In this document: positions 54,940 through 61,427 of the stretch, one piece after another
How the letters are laid out: every line of letters starts with the position of its first letter
Numbering within the stretch: position 1 is the first letter of the stretch
Origin: Acidobacteriaceae bacterium
GTDB taxonomy: Bacteria; Acidobacteriota; Terriglobia; Terriglobales; Acidobacteriaceae
NCBI GenBank assembly: GCA_003165795.1
Contig: PMWW01000169.1
Location: 1 to 61,617 of the forward strand
Reading direction: 5' to 3'
DNA: 61,617 nt
Notes under the pieces: generated by a model
Seen by the model: only the letters and a program-made list of their open reading frames with translations
What the model was told of the DNA's origin: nothing
The model's database searches: none
Program-made: the position numbers and the translations under genes

Positions 54940-56547
54940 CTATTCCGCCGCCGGGTCGCAGGACTGCTCCGCCAGCGAAGCCAGCGTTGCTGCCGATCCT
55001 TGCATGGCAACCCGCTGATGATAGAACCAGAGCCCATGCAGACCACCTAATTCTTCGCCGCCGCCCGCGCGTCCCGGCCCGCCGTGCATTAACGACGGCA
55101 GCACAATTCCGTGTCCCGTGTGGCTGTCTCCAATGGATGGATCGACCAGCAGCAGCCGGCCGTGCGTCGTTCCCAGCGCGACTCCGGCTTCGGCCAAAAA
55201 AGCGGTGTCGTTGCTGAACACCGACGCTGCCAGAGATCCTCCTCCGCGTCGCGCCAGCTCAAACGCGTTCTCCTTGTCGCGATACGGAACTACCGTCGCA
55301 ACCGGGCCAAACACCTCCAGCTCATTCACGATCGCCGCGTCCGAACCGCTGCGCGCTTTCAGCAGTGTCGGCGGAACGAACGCACCCTTCTCTAGATTCG
55401 CGTCCATAGGTGAAAAGTCTTCTGGCCAGTAGGCAAATTCCGCTTGCGCCTTCAGCTTGCGAATCCCTTCTTCCACTGTCTTACGTTGTGTCATATTGAC
55501 CAGTGGCCCCATGTTTACCAGGGGATTCGCCGGGTCGCCCACCACGACCGCGCGCAATAGCGCCGCGATCGCTTCCCCTACTGCCGCGGCCCGCTCGGCG
55601 GGAACCAGCACCCGCCGGATGGCCGTGCACTTCTGCCCCGCTTTGATCGTCATCTCGCGCACCACTTCGCGCACGAAGAATCCGAACGCCACCGAATCCG
55701 GCGCCACGTCCGGTCCGAGCAGCGCGGCATTCAGACTATCGGCCTCAATGTTCACCCGCACATTCTGCTGCCGAATCCCTTTGTGCTGACGAATGCTTTC
55801 GCCGGTATCGGCCGAGCCGGTGAACGCAACCACATCGCCCAGTTGCAGATGATCGAGCAGATCGTTGGGCGAGCCGCAAAGAATCGAGAGCGCTCCCGGC
55901 GGAAGAATGCCAGCCTCGATCACCGCGCTCACCATCTCCTGCGCCAGCCACGCGGTTGAGGTCGCGGGCTTGGCAAGCACAGGAACGCCCGCCAACAGGC
56001 TTACCGCGGCTTTCTCCCACAGGCCCCACGCCGGAAAATTGAACGCATTGATGTGGACCGCGACTCCATCCAGCGGCACTCCCACGTGCAGCCCCTGGAA
56101 ATTCGCGTCGCGCGCCAGCCGCATCGGCGCTCCGTCACGCAGAAGGCGCGCATTGCCTAGTTTCGCAGCGATCTTGGCGAAGTACTTCAGCGTGCCAATC
56201 GAACCATCAACGTCGATGGAGGCATCTGCCTTGGTGTTCCCGGAGTTCTTGCGGGCAATCTCGAACCACTCGTCGCGCCCGCTCGCCAGCACATCGGCAA
56301 TCTTGCCCAACAGCTCGGCACGCTGGCCAAAGGTTAGCTGGCGCAGCTCCGCGCCTCCCACATTGCGGGAGTACTCCAGAGCCGACTTCAAGTCCAATCC
56401 TCTCGAACTTGCCCGCGCCAGCGCATCCCCCGTTGTGGGATTCACCAGCGCTGCGCCGCCTTCTGCGCCCACCTGCCATTTGCCGCCCAGGTAGCTTTGC
56501 AGCACCTTGGTGTCCGATGCCATTAGATTTTTCACTGTAGTCGCCAT
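54940..56547 (-). CDS. boxD: 3,4-dehydroadipyl-CoA semialdehyde dehydrogenase
   Basis: A 535-residue aldehyde dehydrogenase most like BoxD and the ALDH half of PaaZ. It oxidises the ring-cleavage product of the box pathway to 3,4-dehydroadipyl-CoA. Typical blocks: NFPAWGLWEKAA, FTGSADTGESIR, the Glu in NIEADSLNAALL, the catalytic Cys in GQKCTAIRRVLV and the C-terminal SIGDSHTGHGIVLPSLMHGGP. It follows the flavodoxin by 3 nt and is followed by the hydrolase after 1 nt. Confidence 0.9.
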   Translation of the reverse strand: MATTVKNLMASDTKVLQSYLGGKWQVGAEGGAALVNPTTGDALARASSRGLDLKSALEYSRNVGGAELRQLTFGQRAELLGKIADVLASGRDEWFEIARKNSGNTKADASIDVDGSIGTLKYFAKIAAKLGNARLLRDGAPMRLARDANFQGLHVGVPLDGVAVHINAFNFPAWGLWEKAAVSLLAGVPVLAKPATSTAWLAQEMVSAVIEAGILPPGALSILCGSPNDLLDHLQLGDVVAFTGSADTGESIRQHKGIRQQNVRVNIEADSLNAALLGPDVAPDSVAFGFFVREVVREMTIKAGQKCTAIRRVLVPAERAAAVGEAIAALLRAVVVGDPANPLVNMGPLVNMTQRKTVEEGIRKLKAQAEFAYWPEDFSPMDANLEKGAFVPPTLLKARSGSDAAIVNELEVFGPVATVVPYRDKENAFELARRGGGSLAASVFSNDTAFLAEAGVALGTTHGRLLLVDPSIGDSHTGHGIVLPSLMHGGPGRAGGGEELGGLHGLWFYHQRVAMQGSAATLASLAEQSCDPAAE

Positions 56548-56550
56548 GAT

Positions 56551-57024
56551 TTACGCCGTCTCCGATGAAGGCGCCAAATGCGCAACCCAGGGCACGACCC
56601 ATTGCGCCGCCAACTCTTCGGGCAAAGTACCCGAACTGGCGTCGTGCATCAGGATCTCGCCCGCCCGCTTGGCGCCAAGTTCCGCGAGCATCTTGTCGAA
56701 ACGTATGCCACCCTGGCAATACGTGTCTTTGTAAGTACGGTCGCCGAGCGCGATCACCCCATAGGTGACGCTGCTCAGATTCGGTTTCTCGGTTTCTAAA
56801 CTGTTGACCAGCGCCTGGGCGTTGTCGGGCACATCGCCAGCCCCGTAGGTCGAGATGCAAATGAGGAACGTGCCGCCGCCGTGAAAAGCTCTGGCGTCAA
56901 GATTGTCCATCACCTGGATGGTCGCCTGGTGTCCCGCCGTCTCCAGCGCCTGTTGTACTTCCTGCGCCACCATTTCAGCGGTTCCAGTCATGGTCCCCAC
57001 CAGGATGCTAATGCCAACGCCCAT
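56551..57024 (-). CDS. Flavodoxin (MioC-like), first gene of the boxD operon
   Basis: A 157-residue FMN-binding flavodoxin. The phosphate loop TMTGTAEMVAQ (VGTMTGTAE), STYGAGDVPDN and VIALGDRTYKDTYCQGG contact FMN. A short one-electron carrier of this type commonly reduces a cytochrome or oxygenase. The start at 57024 has GGGGA upstream. It opens the operon with boxD and is divergent from boxR. It may deliver electrons to the BoxB epoxidase, whose usual reductase BoxA is not in the window; this is inferred from position. Confidence 0.85.
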   Translation of the reverse strand: MGVGISILVGTMTGTAEMVAQEVQQALETAGHQATIQVMDNLDARAFHGGGTFLICISTYGAGDVPDNAQALVNSLETEKPNLSSVTYGVIALGDRTYKDTYCQGGIRFDKMLAELGAKRAGEILMHDASSGTLPEELAAQWVVPWVAHLAPSSETA

Positions 57025-57080
57025 GCTTTCGTCCCCACGCGGAAGCTGTTTTGCGCACGATTCTCTCCTCACCTGGCACT

Positions 57081-57108
57081 ATTATACGTGTGGTTCCGGA
57101 AGTATAAT
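57081..57108. promoter_or_regulatory. Back-to-back -10 elements of the flavodoxin/boxD operon and boxR
   Basis: ATTATAC (57081-57087) and GTATAAT (57102-57108) form an inverted repeat 14 nt apart. Each contains a TATAAT: on the minus strand about 57 nt before the flavodoxin ATG, on the plus strand 9 nt before the boxR GTG. A TGCA (57108-57111) touches the plus -10. No -35 is clear on either side. Confidence 0.6.
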
Positions 57109-57117
57109 GCATCCACT

Positions 57118-58089
57118 GTGGCCAGAAAGCGCGACATTGTGCATCTGGAGGGCAACGAGCAGGCCGAGAGTCCGGTCGACTCCGCCTCTTTGCCCGCCGG
57201 CCACGAGACAACGGACGAATCCCACTATCTTAAGCTGCTCGGCGAGCGAGTGCGCGAAACTCGCGCTCGCCGCGGCATGACCCGCAAGATCCTCGCCCGC
57301 GACTCCGAAATTTCGGAACGATACCTGGCACAGCTCGAAACCGGACAAGGCAACATCTCGATCCTATTACTGCGCCAGATCGCCGGCGCGCTCGACATTC
57401 CCGTCGAAGCCTTAGTGCTCGAAGGCCCCGAACCTCCCGTCGACTTAGTGCACATCACGGAATTCTTGCGCCGTCTCCCTGCGGCCGAATTAGTCGAAGC
57501 TCGCCGCCTGCTGGTGCAGCATTTCGGCAGAGTCGATCTCGAGGCTCGGCGTGGACGCATCGCAATGATCGGCTTGCGCGGCGCCGGCAAATCCACGCTG
57601 GGGGCCATGCTGGCGCATCGCCTCGAAGTTCCTTTCATCGAACTCGACCGCTTGATCGAGCAGGAAAGCGGCGTCGGCCTTAGCGCTATCTTCGATCTCT
57701 ATGGCCAAGGCGGATTCCGCCGGCTCGAACGTCGCTGTCTCGACCAGGTCATCGAACGGCACCCGCGCTTCGTGCTGGCGACGGGCGGCAGCCTGGTCTC
57801 CGAGCCGGCGACCTTCGAGCGCCTGCTCACCATGTGCTTCACCGTCTGGCTGCGAGCTACTCCGGAAGAGCATATGCAGCGCGTCATCGCCCAGGGCGAC
57901 ATGCGCCCCATGGCCGACAATCGCGAATCCATGTCCGACCTGAAACGCATCCTCGAAGTCCGCGGGCCGCTCTATCGCAAAGCCGACACGGCCATTAACA
58001 CCAGCAATCATGCGGTGAAGGAGTGCCTGCAGAGTCTGATTCGGGCGGTTCAAGAAAGCCAGGTGACGCTTGCCAGAAATGCACAATAA
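57118..58089 (+). CDS. boxR: BoxR-type regulator: XRE helix-turn-helix plus shikimate-kinase-like domain
   Basis: A 323-residue transcription regulator of the BoxR/BzdR family. The N-terminal helix-turn-helix lies at about 38-100 (LKLLGERVRETRARRGMTR, then ISERYLAQLETGQGN), and the C-terminal part (about 145-320) is shikimate-kinase-like with Walker A GLRGAGKST (152-160). In known members benzoyl-CoA binds this domain and relieves repression of box or bzd genes. The GTG at 57118 is preferred: it is 9 nt after a TATAAT, suggesting a leaderless message, and it puts the HTH at the N-terminus. The longer frame from 56881 overlaps the flavodoxin gene. Confidence 0.9.
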   Translation: MARKRDIVHLEGNEQAESPVDSASLPAGHETTDESHYLKLLGERVRETRARRGMTRKILARDSEISERYLAQLETGQGNISILLLRQIAGALDIPVEALVLEGPEPPVDLVHITEFLRRLPAAELVEARRLLVQHFGRVDLEARRGRIAMIGLRGAGKSTLGAMLAHRLEVPFIELDRLIEQESGVGLSAIFDLYGQGGFRRLERRCLDQVIERHPRFVLATGGSLVSEPATFERLLTMCFTVWLRATPEEHMQRVIAQGDMRPMADNRESMSDLKRILEVRGPLYRKADTAINTSNHAVKECLQSLIRAVQESQVTLARNAQ

Positions 58090-58124
58090 TGCGCCACCAT
58101 ATCTTCAGCAAAATGCACTATAAT
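58080..58124 (+). promoter_or_regulatory. boxC promoter with BoxR-like TGCA motifs
   Basis: TGCA-N6-TGCG (58080-58093) overlaps the end of boxR, and a further TGCA (58114-58117) lies directly before TATAAT (58119-58124). Known BzdR/BoxR operators are built on TGCA repeats in such positions. No strong -35 is seen. Confidence 0.5.
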
Positions 58125-58187
58125 TCATCTATCACTGTGGGGATTTGACCGCCTGACCATCGCTGTTCTGAGGAGAGTTCAACCTGC

Positions 58188-59855
58188 ATGTCTAACCTGA
58201 ACCAAGCGGAGCTCGTCACTTTTGACGTGGCTTCTGGAGAGTATCGCCATTGGCGGCTGACCATCGACGGCCGCATCGCGACCCTGGCCATGAACGTCGA
58301 TGAAGACGGTGGCTTGAAGCCCGGCTACAAGCTCAAGCTGAATTCTTATGACCTCGGCGTCGACATCGAACTGCACAATGTCCTGCAGAGCATTCGATTC
58401 GAGCATCCCGAGGTGGCTTGCGTCGTCTTGACCAGTGCTCGCGAGCGCATGTTCTGTGCTGGCGCCAATATTTACATGCTGGGCACTTCTACTCATGCGT
58501 GGAAGGTGAACTTCTGCAAGTTCACCAACGAGACCCGCAACGGCATGGAAGATTCCAGCCGTTACGACGGACTGAAGTTTCTTGCCGCACTTAACGGAAC
58601 CACTGCCGGCGGCGGCTATGAACTGGCTCTGGCCTGCGACGAGATCCTGCTGATCGACGATCGTTCCAGCGCGGTTAGCCTTCCGGAAGTTCCGCTGCTG
58701 GGCGTTCTGCCCGGCACCGGCGGCCTCACTCGCGTGGTCGATAAACGCAAAGTACGTCGCGACCTTGCCGACCTGTTCTGCACCAACCCCGACGGCGTGA
58801 AGGGCGAGCGTGCCAAAGAGTGGGGGCTGGTGGACGACATCGCAATTCCCGCGAAATTCCAGGATTCGGCTCGCGCCCGCGCGCAGGCGTTGGTGAACGA
58901 CTCCATCCGTCCCGCAGCTGCGAAAGGCATCAAGCTGAATCCGCTCGATCGCAAGATTGACGACCACGGTTATCACTATAAGCGCGTCGATGTGGTGTTC
59001 GATCGCAGCGCCCGCACAGTGACGCTGACGGTTCGTGCCCCCGAAGGCGATCAGCCGAAGACGGTCGACGCAATTCACGCTGCCGGCGATCAGTGGTGGC
59101 CGCTGGCCATGGCTCGCGAACTCGACGATGCCATCCTGATGCTGCGTGTCAATGAGGCGGAGCTTGGGTTGCTGCTGCTAAAGACGGGGGGCGACGCGCA
59201 AGCTGTTCTCGCCACCGACGCGGTGATGCTCGAGCACCGCAATGACTGGCTGGTGCGCGAGACAATCGGCATGTTGCGGCGGACCTTGGCTCGTCTCGAT
59301 GTCTCGTCGCGCAGCATGTACGCCATCCTTGAGCAGGGCTCCTGCTTTGCCGGAATTTTGTTCGAGCTGGCGCTGGCCGCCGACCGCAGCTACATGCTGG
59401 CGTTACCGGAAGAAGAGGCTGACTCGCCGAAAATCGCGGTCGATGATTTCAACTTCGGCCTTCTACCTGCCGTCAATGGACGCGGCCGTCTGGAAACGCG
59501 TTTCAGCGGTGACGCTAAACACATGGGCGCTGCCGTGGAAGCCAAGGGCAAGCTACTGGGAGCGGAAGAAGGTCTGCAGGCCGGTTTAGTGACCGTCTCC
59601 CCCGACGATCTCGACTGGGAAGACGAGGTGCGCATCGCCATCGAAGAGCGGGCCAGCCTCTCGCCCGATGCGCTCACCGGCCTGGAAGCCAGCCTGCGTT
59701 TCCCCGGTCCCGAAACTGTGGAGACCAAGGTATTCGGCCGACTTTCCGCATGGCAAAACTGGGTCTTCATTCGTCCGAATTCCACCGGCGAGCATGGCGC
59801 GCTCAAACTTTTCGGCACCGGAACGAAAGCGCGCTTCAGTTGGGAGAGAGTGTAG
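58188..59855 (+). CDS. boxC: 2,3-epoxybenzoyl-CoA dihydrolase
   Basis: A 555-residue crotonase-superfamily enzyme that opens the ring of 2,3-epoxybenzoyl-CoA with two waters, releasing formate. BoxC proteins are longer than simple enoyl-CoA hydratases, and this length fits. Crotonase blocks are in the N-terminal half: CAGANIYMLG (oxyanion loop), NGTTAGGGYELALACDE and PEVPLLGVLPGTGG. A second, diverged crotonase-like half follows. The stop TAG (59853-59855) is the first base(s) of a 131-bp repeat element. GAGGAG precedes the ATG. Confidence 0.93.
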   Translation: MSNLNQAELVTFDVASGEYRHWRLTIDGRIATLAMNVDEDGGLKPGYKLKLNSYDLGVDIELHNVLQSIRFEHPEVACVVLTSARERMFCAGANIYMLGTSTHAWKVNFCKFTNETRNGMEDSSRYDGLKFLAALNGTTAGGGYELALACDEILLIDDRSSAVSLPEVPLLGVLPGTGGLTRVVDKRKVRRDLADLFCTNPDGVKGERAKEWGLVDDIAIPAKFQDSARARAQALVNDSIRPAAAKGIKLNPLDRKIDDHGYHYKRVDVVFDRSARTVTLTVRAPEGDQPKTVDAIHAAGDQWWPLAMARELDDAILMLRVNEAELGLLLLKTGGDAQAVLATDAVMLEHRNDWLVRETIGMLRRTLARLDVSSRSMYAILEQGSCFAGILFELALAADRSYMLALPEEEADSPKIAVDDFNFGLLPAVNGRGRLETRFSGDAKHMGAAVEAKGKLLGAEEGLQAGLVTVSPDDLDWEDEVRIAIEERASLSPDALTGLEASLRFPGPETVETKVFGRLSAWQNWVFIRPNSTGEHGALKLFGTGTKARFSWERV

Positions 59856-59985
59856 GTAGAGCTGACCTTCAGGCCAGCGTGAAACGTGCGCTTCGAAAAC
59901 CTTTTTCATCGACAATTGCTTGCAGTTGTCGATGAAATTGCAAAATACATGTTCGCTGGACGCGACGCTAAGGCGCCGCTCTACC
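59855..59985. repeat. 131-bp three-hairpin element with GGTAGAGC ends
   Basis: Terminal perfect inverted repeats GGTAGAGC (59855-59862) and GCTCTACC (59978-59985). Inside: an imperfect CTGACC-TTCA-GGCCAG hairpin, a central 12-bp perfect stem (59904-59915 with 59926-59937), and GCGACGC-TAAG-GCGCCGC. The plan matches 32750-32882, but the central stem has an unrelated sequence. It fills the boxC-boxB gap and ends 17 nt before boxB. Confidence 0.85.
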
Positions 59986-60002
59986 GTGACTGGAGCTTCG
60001 CA

Positions 60003-61427
60003 ATGTCAATTAATTATCAAGACCGTATTCCTAACAACGTCGATCTCGGCTCCAACCGCACCCTACAGCGCGCGCTGGAGCACTGGCAGCCCGAGTTCCT
60101 CAACTGGTGGCAGGAACTGGGTCCGCGCGACTTTCAGGTTGCCGACGTTTACCTGCGCACGGCTACTTCGGTGGATGCCAAAGGCTGGGCGACCTACGGC
60201 TACGTGCGCATGCCCGATTATCGCTGGGGCATCTTTCTCGCCGGTCGCGATCCCGAGCGCCGCATCGGTTTTGGCGACAGCTACGGACAGGAAGTGTGGC
60301 AGCAGATTCCCGGCGAGTATCGCGCCACGCTGCGCCGCTTGATCGTCACCCAGGGCGACACCGAGCCCGCCTCGGTCGAGCAGCAGCGCATGTTGGGACA
60401 CATCGCTCCCTCGCTTTATGACATGCGCAATTTGTTTCAGGTGAATGTCGAAGAAGGCCGTCATCTGTGGGCAATGGTCTATCTGTTGCACGCCTACTTC
60501 GGCCGCGACGGCCGCGAGGAAGCGGAGGAGTTGCTGGAGCGCCACTCCGGCGACGCCGACAAGCCACGCATTCTCGGCACCTTCAACGAGCCCATTCGCG
60601 ACTGGCTCAGCTTCTTCATGTTCACCTACTTCACCGATCGCGATGGCAAGTTTCAACTGAAATCGCTGGCCGAGTCGAGCTTCGATCCGCTCGCCCGCAC
60701 GTGTTCTTTCATGTTGACCGAGGAAGCGCATCACATGTTCGTCGGCGACACCGGTATCAATCGCGTGGTCCGCCGCACGCTGGAAGTGATGAAGGAATTG
60801 GGCACGGAAGATCCCGCGGCCGTCCGTAACGCAGGTGCGATCGATTTGCCGACAGTTCAGAAGTATCTGAACTTCTGGTTCAGCTCGTCACTCGATCTGT
60901 TCGGCTCGGAGACATCTTCCAACGCTGCATCCTATTTCGCCAATGGTCTGAAGGGCCGTCCCGATGAATCGCGCTACGAAGACCACATCGCCACCGATCA
61001 GGCTTACGTCCTGGAAGTTCCCGATGGCAATGGCGGATTCAAGACCGAAGAGATTCCGATGCGCAATGCGATGAACGACGTCACCCGCGGCTCCTACGTT
61101 AAAGACTGCGACATGGGCGTCACGCGCTGGAATCGCGTGATCGAAAAGGCGGGATATTCCTTCCGGCTGTCGTTACCTTCGACGCGCTTCCGTCGCAACA
61201 TCGGAAGTTGGGCTGGCGTGCCGACCGACCCCACGGGAAAGCCGATCACGCAGGACGAGTTCAACGCGCAAATCGGCAACTGGCTGCCGAGCGACAGCGA
61301 TCGGGCCTACATCATGAGCTTGATGCATGGCGTCCACGAGCAAGGCAAGATGGCGGCCTGGATCGCGCCTCCCGACCGCGGCATCAACAACAACCCGGTG
61401 GATTACGAATACGTGAAGATGCATTAG
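60003..61427 (+). CDS. boxB: Benzoyl-CoA 2,3-epoxidase, subunit B
   Basis: A 474-residue di-iron oxygenase that forms 2,3-epoxybenzoyl-CoA from benzoyl-CoA with O2. Length and sequence fit BoxB. The iron-ligand pairs are seen as ExxH motifs: VNVEEGRH (about 151-154) and TEEAHH (240-244). A long segment RPDESRYEDHIATDQAYV follows in short pieces. The start at 60003 has GGAG upstream; the frame from 59886 only reads the repeat element. The stop codon TAG is the first part of a heptamer array. boxA, its usual reductase, is not present up to the window end. Confidence 0.93.
   Translation: MSINYQDRIPNNVDLGSNRTLQRALEHWQPEFLNWWQELGPRDFQVADVYLRTATSVDAKGWATYGYVRMPDYRWGIFLAGRDPERRIGFGDSYGQEVWQQIPGEYRATLRRLIVTQGDTEPASVEQQRMLGHIAPSLYDMRNLFQVNVEEGRHLWAMVYLLHAYFGRDGREEAEELLERHSGDADKPRILGTFNEPIRDWLSFFMFTYFTDRDGKFQLKSLAESSFDPLARTCSFMLTEEAHHMFVGDTGINRVVRRTLEVMKELGTEDPAAVRNAGAIDLPTVQKYLNFWFSSSLDLFGSETSSNAASYFANGLKGRPDESRYEDHIATDQAYVLEVPDGNGGFKTEEIPMRNAMNDVTRGSYVKDCDMGVTRWNRVIEKAGYSFRLSLPSTRFRRNIGSWAGVPTDPTGKPITQDEFNAQIGNWLPSDSDRAYIMSLMHGVHEQGKMAAWIAPPDRGINNNPVDYEYVKMH

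Follow-up and report, generated by a model that had tools for sequence, protein, structure and literature searches.

Predicted BoxR-type operators at the box promoters of an Acidobacteriaceae genome and their co-occurrence with BoxR in Acidobacteriota

Analysis of the window, which is a whole contig of 61,617 bases from a genome of 4.95 Mb, indicated that the TGCA-containing motifs at the box promoters are very probably operators of BoxR, the regulator encoded between them. The clusters of these sites would shut three transcription units: boxC-boxB, boxR, and flavodoxin-boxD. A preliminary description of this DNA had proposed BoxR-type operators lying on the promoters, and the proposal is borne out, as far as sequence comparison can tell, by the top ranks of the sites in a matrix scan, by their recurrence in relatives, and by a presence that tracks BoxR in 61 of 61 boxC loci.

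The box locus and its regulator

The boxR gene (57118–58089, plus strand) encodes a protein that scored 403.8 bits with the family model NF006015 (curated cut-off, 204). An N-terminal XRE-type helix-turn-helix (HTH) domain (HTH_3, residues 45–98) is followed by a shikimate-kinase-like domain (SKI, residues 154–311), which is the architecture of BoxR and BzdR. The protein was 57% identical to an Aromatoleum homolog over 281 residues comprising both domains, including the HTH. Its nearest named relative was “MAG: Acidobacteriaceae bacterium isolate bog_382,” with 81% identity; no BoxR was found in viral contigs. On the plus strand, boxR precedes boxC (58188–59855; 881 bits with TIGR03222, cut-off 712) and boxB (59886–61427; 774 bits with TIGR03225, cut-off 499). 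The divergent operon on the minus strand is headed by a gene for a short, MioC-like flavodoxin (56551–57024; PF00258, 1.3e-27; 120.9 bits with the MioC model, below the cut-off of 158), which is followed by a gene for a boxD-type semialdehyde dehydrogenase (54940–56547; 736 bits with NF008868, cut-off 444) and by genes for an alpha/beta hydrolase and a thioesterase. Such a neighborhood, with boxC and boxB downstream of the regulator and a boxD-type gene in the divergent operon, is also that expected of a BoxR/BzdR family member.

The most likely start codon of boxR is GTG at 57118, because G751, a member of the same genus, has ATG in the same alignment column. The start codon is located 9 nt past a TATAAT hexamer, and the same spacing was seen in the aligned members of the genus; therefore, the leader of the mRNA would be very short or absent. 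BoxA scoring over the TIGR03224 cut-off was found neither in the nine genomes of the genus, eight of which had weak matches only, nor in 30 other boxC-bearing Acidobacteriota. The flavodoxin encoded divergently from boxR is a candidate electron donor for BoxB in this genus.

Candidate operators in the window

The motifs lie where the preliminary description had placed them. The TGCA at 57108–57111 touches the boxR hexamer TATAAT (57103–57108), with T57108 in common. At the boxC promoter, TGCA (58080–58083) is separated by six bases from TGCG (58090–58093), and a further TGCA (58114–58117) is located just 5' of TATAAT (58119–58124). The 28-bp inverted repeat of ATTATAC (57081–57087) and GTATAAT (57102–57108) is exact; a repeat of this kind with up to three mismatches occurred once in the window (0.41 expected; at least one in 36 of 100 shuffles), and the real copy has none. 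As a tetranucleotide, TGCA is depleted in the window, with 214 copies against a mean of 305 in 100 shuffles. Lone copies therefore mean little, and TGCA by itself, which had been taken for a BoxR signal, is not diagnostic. The hexamer TATAAT is enriched (10 copies against a mean of 4.1), and none of 100 shuffles got to 10.

The informative unit, beyond the TGCA noted earlier, was the 16-bp palindrome ATGCACTATAGTGCAT, the BoxR/BzdR consensus published for Betaproteobacteria, where the sites are described as nearly always multiple and mainly three to five helical turns apart (Suvorova and Gelfand, 2019, PMC6449761). The TGCA at 58114 was found to have a second, imperfect half, and the resulting sequence (ATGCACTATAATTCAT, 58113–58128) agrees with the published consensus in 14 of 16 positions. 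Over the whole genome, position 58113 was the sole place with one mismatch to ATGCACTATARTGCAT, and 58079 was among several with three; the scan of both strands with this pattern gave 14 matches, compared with 6 for the reversed control pattern.

A matrix was developed on the basis of other phyla. From the best 80 of 534 boxR loci, nine whose record titles named them as acidobacterial were excluded and L036, with the bare title “bacterium,” was retained; the 65 sites with at least 13 of the 16 consensus letters, taken from these 71 loci outside Acidobacteria, were used in both orientations. A site with at least 12 of 16 letters was present in 78 of the 80 boxR loci that were the best of the 534 (200 shuffled palindromes: mean 9.4, maximum 52), and such a site lay within −300 to +60 of boxR in 64 of the 71 non-acidobacterial loci (shuffled palindromes: mean 0.9, maximum 49). 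The TATAAT core does not distinguish the window from other phyla, as 27 of the 65 matrix sites hold it. The six best of 61,602 window positions were 58113 (25.4 bits), 58079 (18.0 bits), 57097 (12.2 bits), 952 (7.8 bits), 57074 (7.6 bits), and 57129 (6.2 bits). Five of them fall in or just beside 57081–58124, and three contain TATAAT.

Among 8 million simulated positions, none reached the score of 58113 and seven reached that of 58079. Chance would give about 0.7 positions per window that score as high as 57097; the per-position probabilities of 57074 and 57129 were 6.6e-5 and 1.3e-4, which imply about 4 and 8 chance matches per window. It could be argued that all the motifs are due to chance, as both the tetranucleotide TGCA and the −10 hexamer TATAAT are common; the window shows no enrichment of TGCA, and 3 of 100 shuffles had as many consensus matches as the window (three) or more. 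We consider this highly improbable: the two boxC sites took the first and second ranks with a matrix from other phyla, at scores almost never reached in the simulation, the boxC site is conserved in relatives, and the co-occurrence with BoxR described below contradicts a chance origin.

BoxR control of boxC is a well-supported prediction. The main predicted operator of boxC (58113–58128, plus strand) has as its core the TATAAT at 58119–58124, the putative −10 of this gene, on the plus strand. A second predicted operator (ATGCACAATAATGCGC, 58079–58094, plus strand) agrees with the consensus palindrome in 12 of 16 positions, overlaps the 3' end of boxR, and lies 34 bp upstream of the main site, which is within the range of three to five helical turns. 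The main site reads ATGCACTATAATGCAT in all five other boxR-bearing members of the genus whose boxC was found. Two perfect TGCA halves are present in neither boxC site of this genome and in the main site of five members of the genus, and a weaker second site (3.1–12.3 bits) is located at 33–34 bp in those five boxR-bearing members. In the family, 17 boxC loci were found and the partial one (L129/G767) was dropped; a site with at least 12 of 16 letters was located upstream of boxC in 16 of 16 loci, in one of them (G321) through the core alone.

No −35 element was recognised for the three TATAAT hexamers, and a simple promoter scan used none of them. The only site returned by a generic promoter scan (58063–58090, with a −10 AATAAT at 58085–58090 inside the 58079 operator) was set aside, one match being compared with a shuffle mean of 0.8. 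In genus g30 (L123, L125–L128), the region upstream of boxC, read by eye, has TTGACA (TTGACC in L125), the operator, and a TANNNT hexamer 18 nt later; therefore, the operator would fill the spacer between −35 and −10 there.

Three further candidates were located in the spacer between the flavodoxin gene and boxR. The first, CGGAAGTATAATGCAT (57097–57112, plus strand; rank 3, 12.2–12.3 bits), lies over the putative −10 of boxR (TATAAT, 57103–57108, plus strand). The second, TGGCACTATTATACGT (57074–57089, plus strand; rank 5, 7.6–7.8 bits), has the half-site GCAC at 57076–57079 and lies over the putative −10 of the flavodoxin/boxD operon (TATAAT, 57081–57086, minus strand). The third, GCGCGACATTGTGCAT (57129–57144, plus strand; rank 6, 6.2 bits), is a weak candidate in the first codons of boxR. 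Each has at best one good half (12.3, 7.8, and 6.2 bits); the three weak sites carry weight because they cluster, overlie the −10 hexamers, and are conserved. The boxR gene was present in seven of nine genomes of the genus, and the ATTATAC/GTATAAT repeat, including both hexamers, was invariant in those seven; the TGCA at 57108 was intact in five of them. The 57097 candidate scored at least 9.0 bits in 6/7 members and <3 bits in G749. The 57074 candidate scored 7.8–11.7 bits in 5/7 members, 3.3 bits in G749, and <3 bits in G751. The 57129 candidate scored 6.2–12.4 bits in 6/7 members and was constantly located 32 bp after the 57097 site, a conservation that is ambiguous because the sequence is coding. 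The spacing of 32 bp fits the rule of three to five turns; the spacing of about 23 bp between the 57074 and 57097 sites (23–24 bp in the five of seven members where both score), about two turns, does not.

The preliminary description had placed two promoters back to back in these 28 bp and supposed that a single bound BoxR could silence both operons. The exact repeat agrees with the first idea; boxC, however, would be transcribed from a third promoter, at a distance of 1 kb, that has two sites to itself, and the minus-strand promoter would drive the flavodoxin gene first and only then the boxD-type gene. A single BoxR is unlikely, because each −10 in the spacer has a site of its own and a third site lies in the first codons of boxR, and BzdR is described as placing one dimer on each TGCA palindrome, with four on its promoter (PMC6678401). 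Conservation in relatives, on which the proposal had been made to depend, was found for the boxC site in all five of the other boxR-bearing genus members mentioned above; the spacer sites were conserved less well, and in G749 they were poor despite the presence of BoxR and a perfect boxC site.

This weakness leaves room for another explanation, in which only the boxC sites are real operators, ATTATAC-N14-GTATAAT represents two back-to-back −10 hexamers of a divergent, possibly bidirectional promoter, and neither boxR nor the flavodoxin operon is regulated by BoxR. The missing half in each spacer site, the scores of no more than 3.3 bits in G749, and a repeat that is invariant where the neighboring TGCA is not would all be in accordance with it. 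Nevertheless, we regard it as rather unlikely. The three spacer matches start within 56 bp of each other, and all three sites are kept in four of the six other genus members, with at least two in five of six. Genus g24 has a better site in the same spacer (13.6 and 17.4 bits; two of two loci scored), and in other phyla boxR usually has sites immediately in front of it, as noted above. BoxR autoregulation thus appears probable, although less well supported than the control of boxC.

Distribution of the operator and of BoxR in the phylum

In a sample of 396 genomes from the phylum, boxC was present in 66 at E 1e-100, and the upstream regions of 61 boxC genes (−1500 to +60, or as far as the contig reached) were scored by the best site per locus. 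The five genomes left out (G602, G680, G746, G661, and G639) had a boxC match that was partial, split, or at a contig end. Only 61 bases of the region were available in G414 and 1026 bases in G521, and the result was unchanged without both. Genomes were labeled as BoxR-bearing when the family model scored over its curated cut-off: 60 genomes were searched and 26 passed, four of them only with neighbors in frame, which together with the window's own gave 27. These labels were revised once the scores had been seen, though by an independent curated cut-off. The earlier labels (E ≤1e-50 to the BoxR of the window) had recognized six BoxR-bearing genomes and provided a weak test (p 0.0099), with 19 of 55 “BoxR-less” genomes at 15 bits or more; the family-model search added 21 BoxR-bearing genomes, and the separation was then perfect.

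With the revised labels, all 27 boxC loci of BoxR-bearing genomes scored at least 10.1 bits and all 34 of BoxR-less genomes at most 6.5 bits (61 loci, with kinship ignored). The AUC was 1.0; about 1000 column-permuted matrices gave a mean of 0.57, and three of them reached at least 0.95 (highest, 0.993). BoxR was present in 24 genera and absent from 14, none being mixed, and 11 of the 34 BoxR-less genomes belonged to one genus, g142. The G+C content of the 250 bases upstream of boxC was 0.64 in BoxR-less and 0.58 in BoxR-bearing genomes. In G260, which has sites of 14.8 and 12.0 bits, boxR was not matched at E 1e-50; the contig of this genome stops 2.5 kb beyond boxC. The operator was missing from all 34 boxC loci, those of g142 among them, whose genomes gave no family-model score above the cut-off.

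The presence of the sites thus tracked BoxR, which also bears on whether another regulator of aromatic pathways could act on them, such as MbdR (ATAC-N10-GTAT) or an activator of the BenR/XylS type (TGCA-N6-GGNTA). The ATAC and GTAT arms do occur in the spacer, and TGCA half-sites are shared with BenR, as far as the sites of these regulators are described. The arms are, however, 14 bases apart instead of the 10 of MbdR, and no GGNTA follows at N6 after the TGCA at 57108, 57140, 58080, or 58114. Control by either of these regulators is therefore hardly credible, and BoxR remains the preferred regulator of these sites.

Site pairs upstream of boxC (both sites scoring at least 4 bits and more than 12 bp apart) were spaced by 30–34 bp in 12 and by 43–44 bp in 10 of the 24 BoxR-bearing genomes with at least two sites. 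No pair was found at 35–42 bp, two genomes had only 55 or 92 bp, and a single site was present in 3 of the 27 BoxR-bearing genomes. Spacings of 30–34 and 43–44 bp fit three or four helical turns, so the dimers would lie on one face of the DNA.

Two lineages without BoxR were compared with their relatives. No BoxR was found in G321, a 93% complete genome of the window's genus, where the best match had E 0.005 and matches to boxR did not go beyond weak HTH ones. Its boxC promoter reads ATTAACTATAATTGAT and retains TATAAT, with a score of 8.5 bits compared with 25–29 bits in the six boxR-bearing members of the genus that were read. The flavodoxin gene and boxC of G321 are divergent across about 90 bp (L141, 5815–5907) and share this short spacer, an arrangement suggestive of boxR loss with fusion of the two promoters. 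G427 (99% complete) has no BoxR, and five others of its family in the sample have it. G427 reads TGACGTATAATCCC and is devoid of the upstream boxC site; in place of TGACGTATAATCCC, four of the five BoxR-bearing family members have TGCAGTATAATGCC or TGCAGTATAATTCC, and G451 has CGAAGTATAATGCA. Thus, in both G321 and G427, TATAAT was kept and TGCA was gone, as would be expected if the polymerase depends on TATAAT and the repressor on TGCA.

Proposed regulation and its significance

According to the proposed mechanism, each operator would be a 16-bp palindrome of the ATGCAYTATARTGCAT type, the center of which doubles as the −10 hexamer of its promoter; therefore, a BoxR dimer and RNA polymerase could not occupy it together. 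The pair of sites at 58079 and 58113, 34 bp or about three helical turns apart, would shut boxC-boxB. The cluster of 57074 and 57097, perhaps with 57129, would shut the back-to-back promoters of boxR and the flavodoxin-boxD operon, and we infer that neighboring dimers, one per −10, rather than one BoxR would be bound at the divergent spacer. Benzoyl-CoA is the inducer that releases BzdR and BoxR in Azoarcus (PMC6678401, PMC4424350); by analogy, it may release BoxR here when benzoate is present.

Regulator, motif, and regulatory logic have all been described in Betaproteobacteria. As described there (PMC6449761), the BoxR operators are likewise 16-bp TGCA-N6-TGCA palindromes three to five turns apart, with boxR beside boxC and boxB and a divergent operon with boxD; the present system differs in its host, which belongs to Acidobacteriota, in the flavodoxin gene at the head of the divergent operon, and in that boxA was not found. 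BzdR, which also combines an XRE-type HTH with a shikimate-kinase-like domain (PMC6449761), is similarly a repressor of a benzoyl-CoA pathway, with operators over the −10 and the start and with several dimers on the PN promoter of Azoarcus (PMC6678401). However, insofar as that promoter is described in the same source, neither its OR1–OR3 layout nor TGCA-N15-TGCA was recognised here, and the genes concerned are the aerobic box genes, unlike the anaerobic bzd genes of Azoarcus. The pseudo-symmetrical sequence with its predicted divergent transcripts resembles the bidirectional promoters described in E. coli (PMC12825309), except that here each −10 is covered by a candidate repressor site.

A broader reading can be put forward only tentatively. 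In it, the operator and the core promoter would be one element, with the −10 as the center of the palindrome, so that loss of BoxR would leave a working constitutive promoter in which TATAAT is kept and TGCA eroded (G321 and G427), with the flavodoxin and boxC promoters fused in G321. It would further include a box pathway without BoxA and a BoxR-controlled flavodoxin as the candidate electron carrier of BoxB in this genus.

No report of BoxR operators in Acidobacteriota was found in the literature searched. The results would extend to this phylum a regulator-operator pair that was worked out in Betaproteobacteria. The pattern of gain and loss suggests that the sequence of a genome alone could show whether its aerobic benzoate degradation is under BoxR or under some other control. 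It also constitutes a natural experiment that separates the letters going with the repressor (TGCA) from those staying without it (TATAAT).
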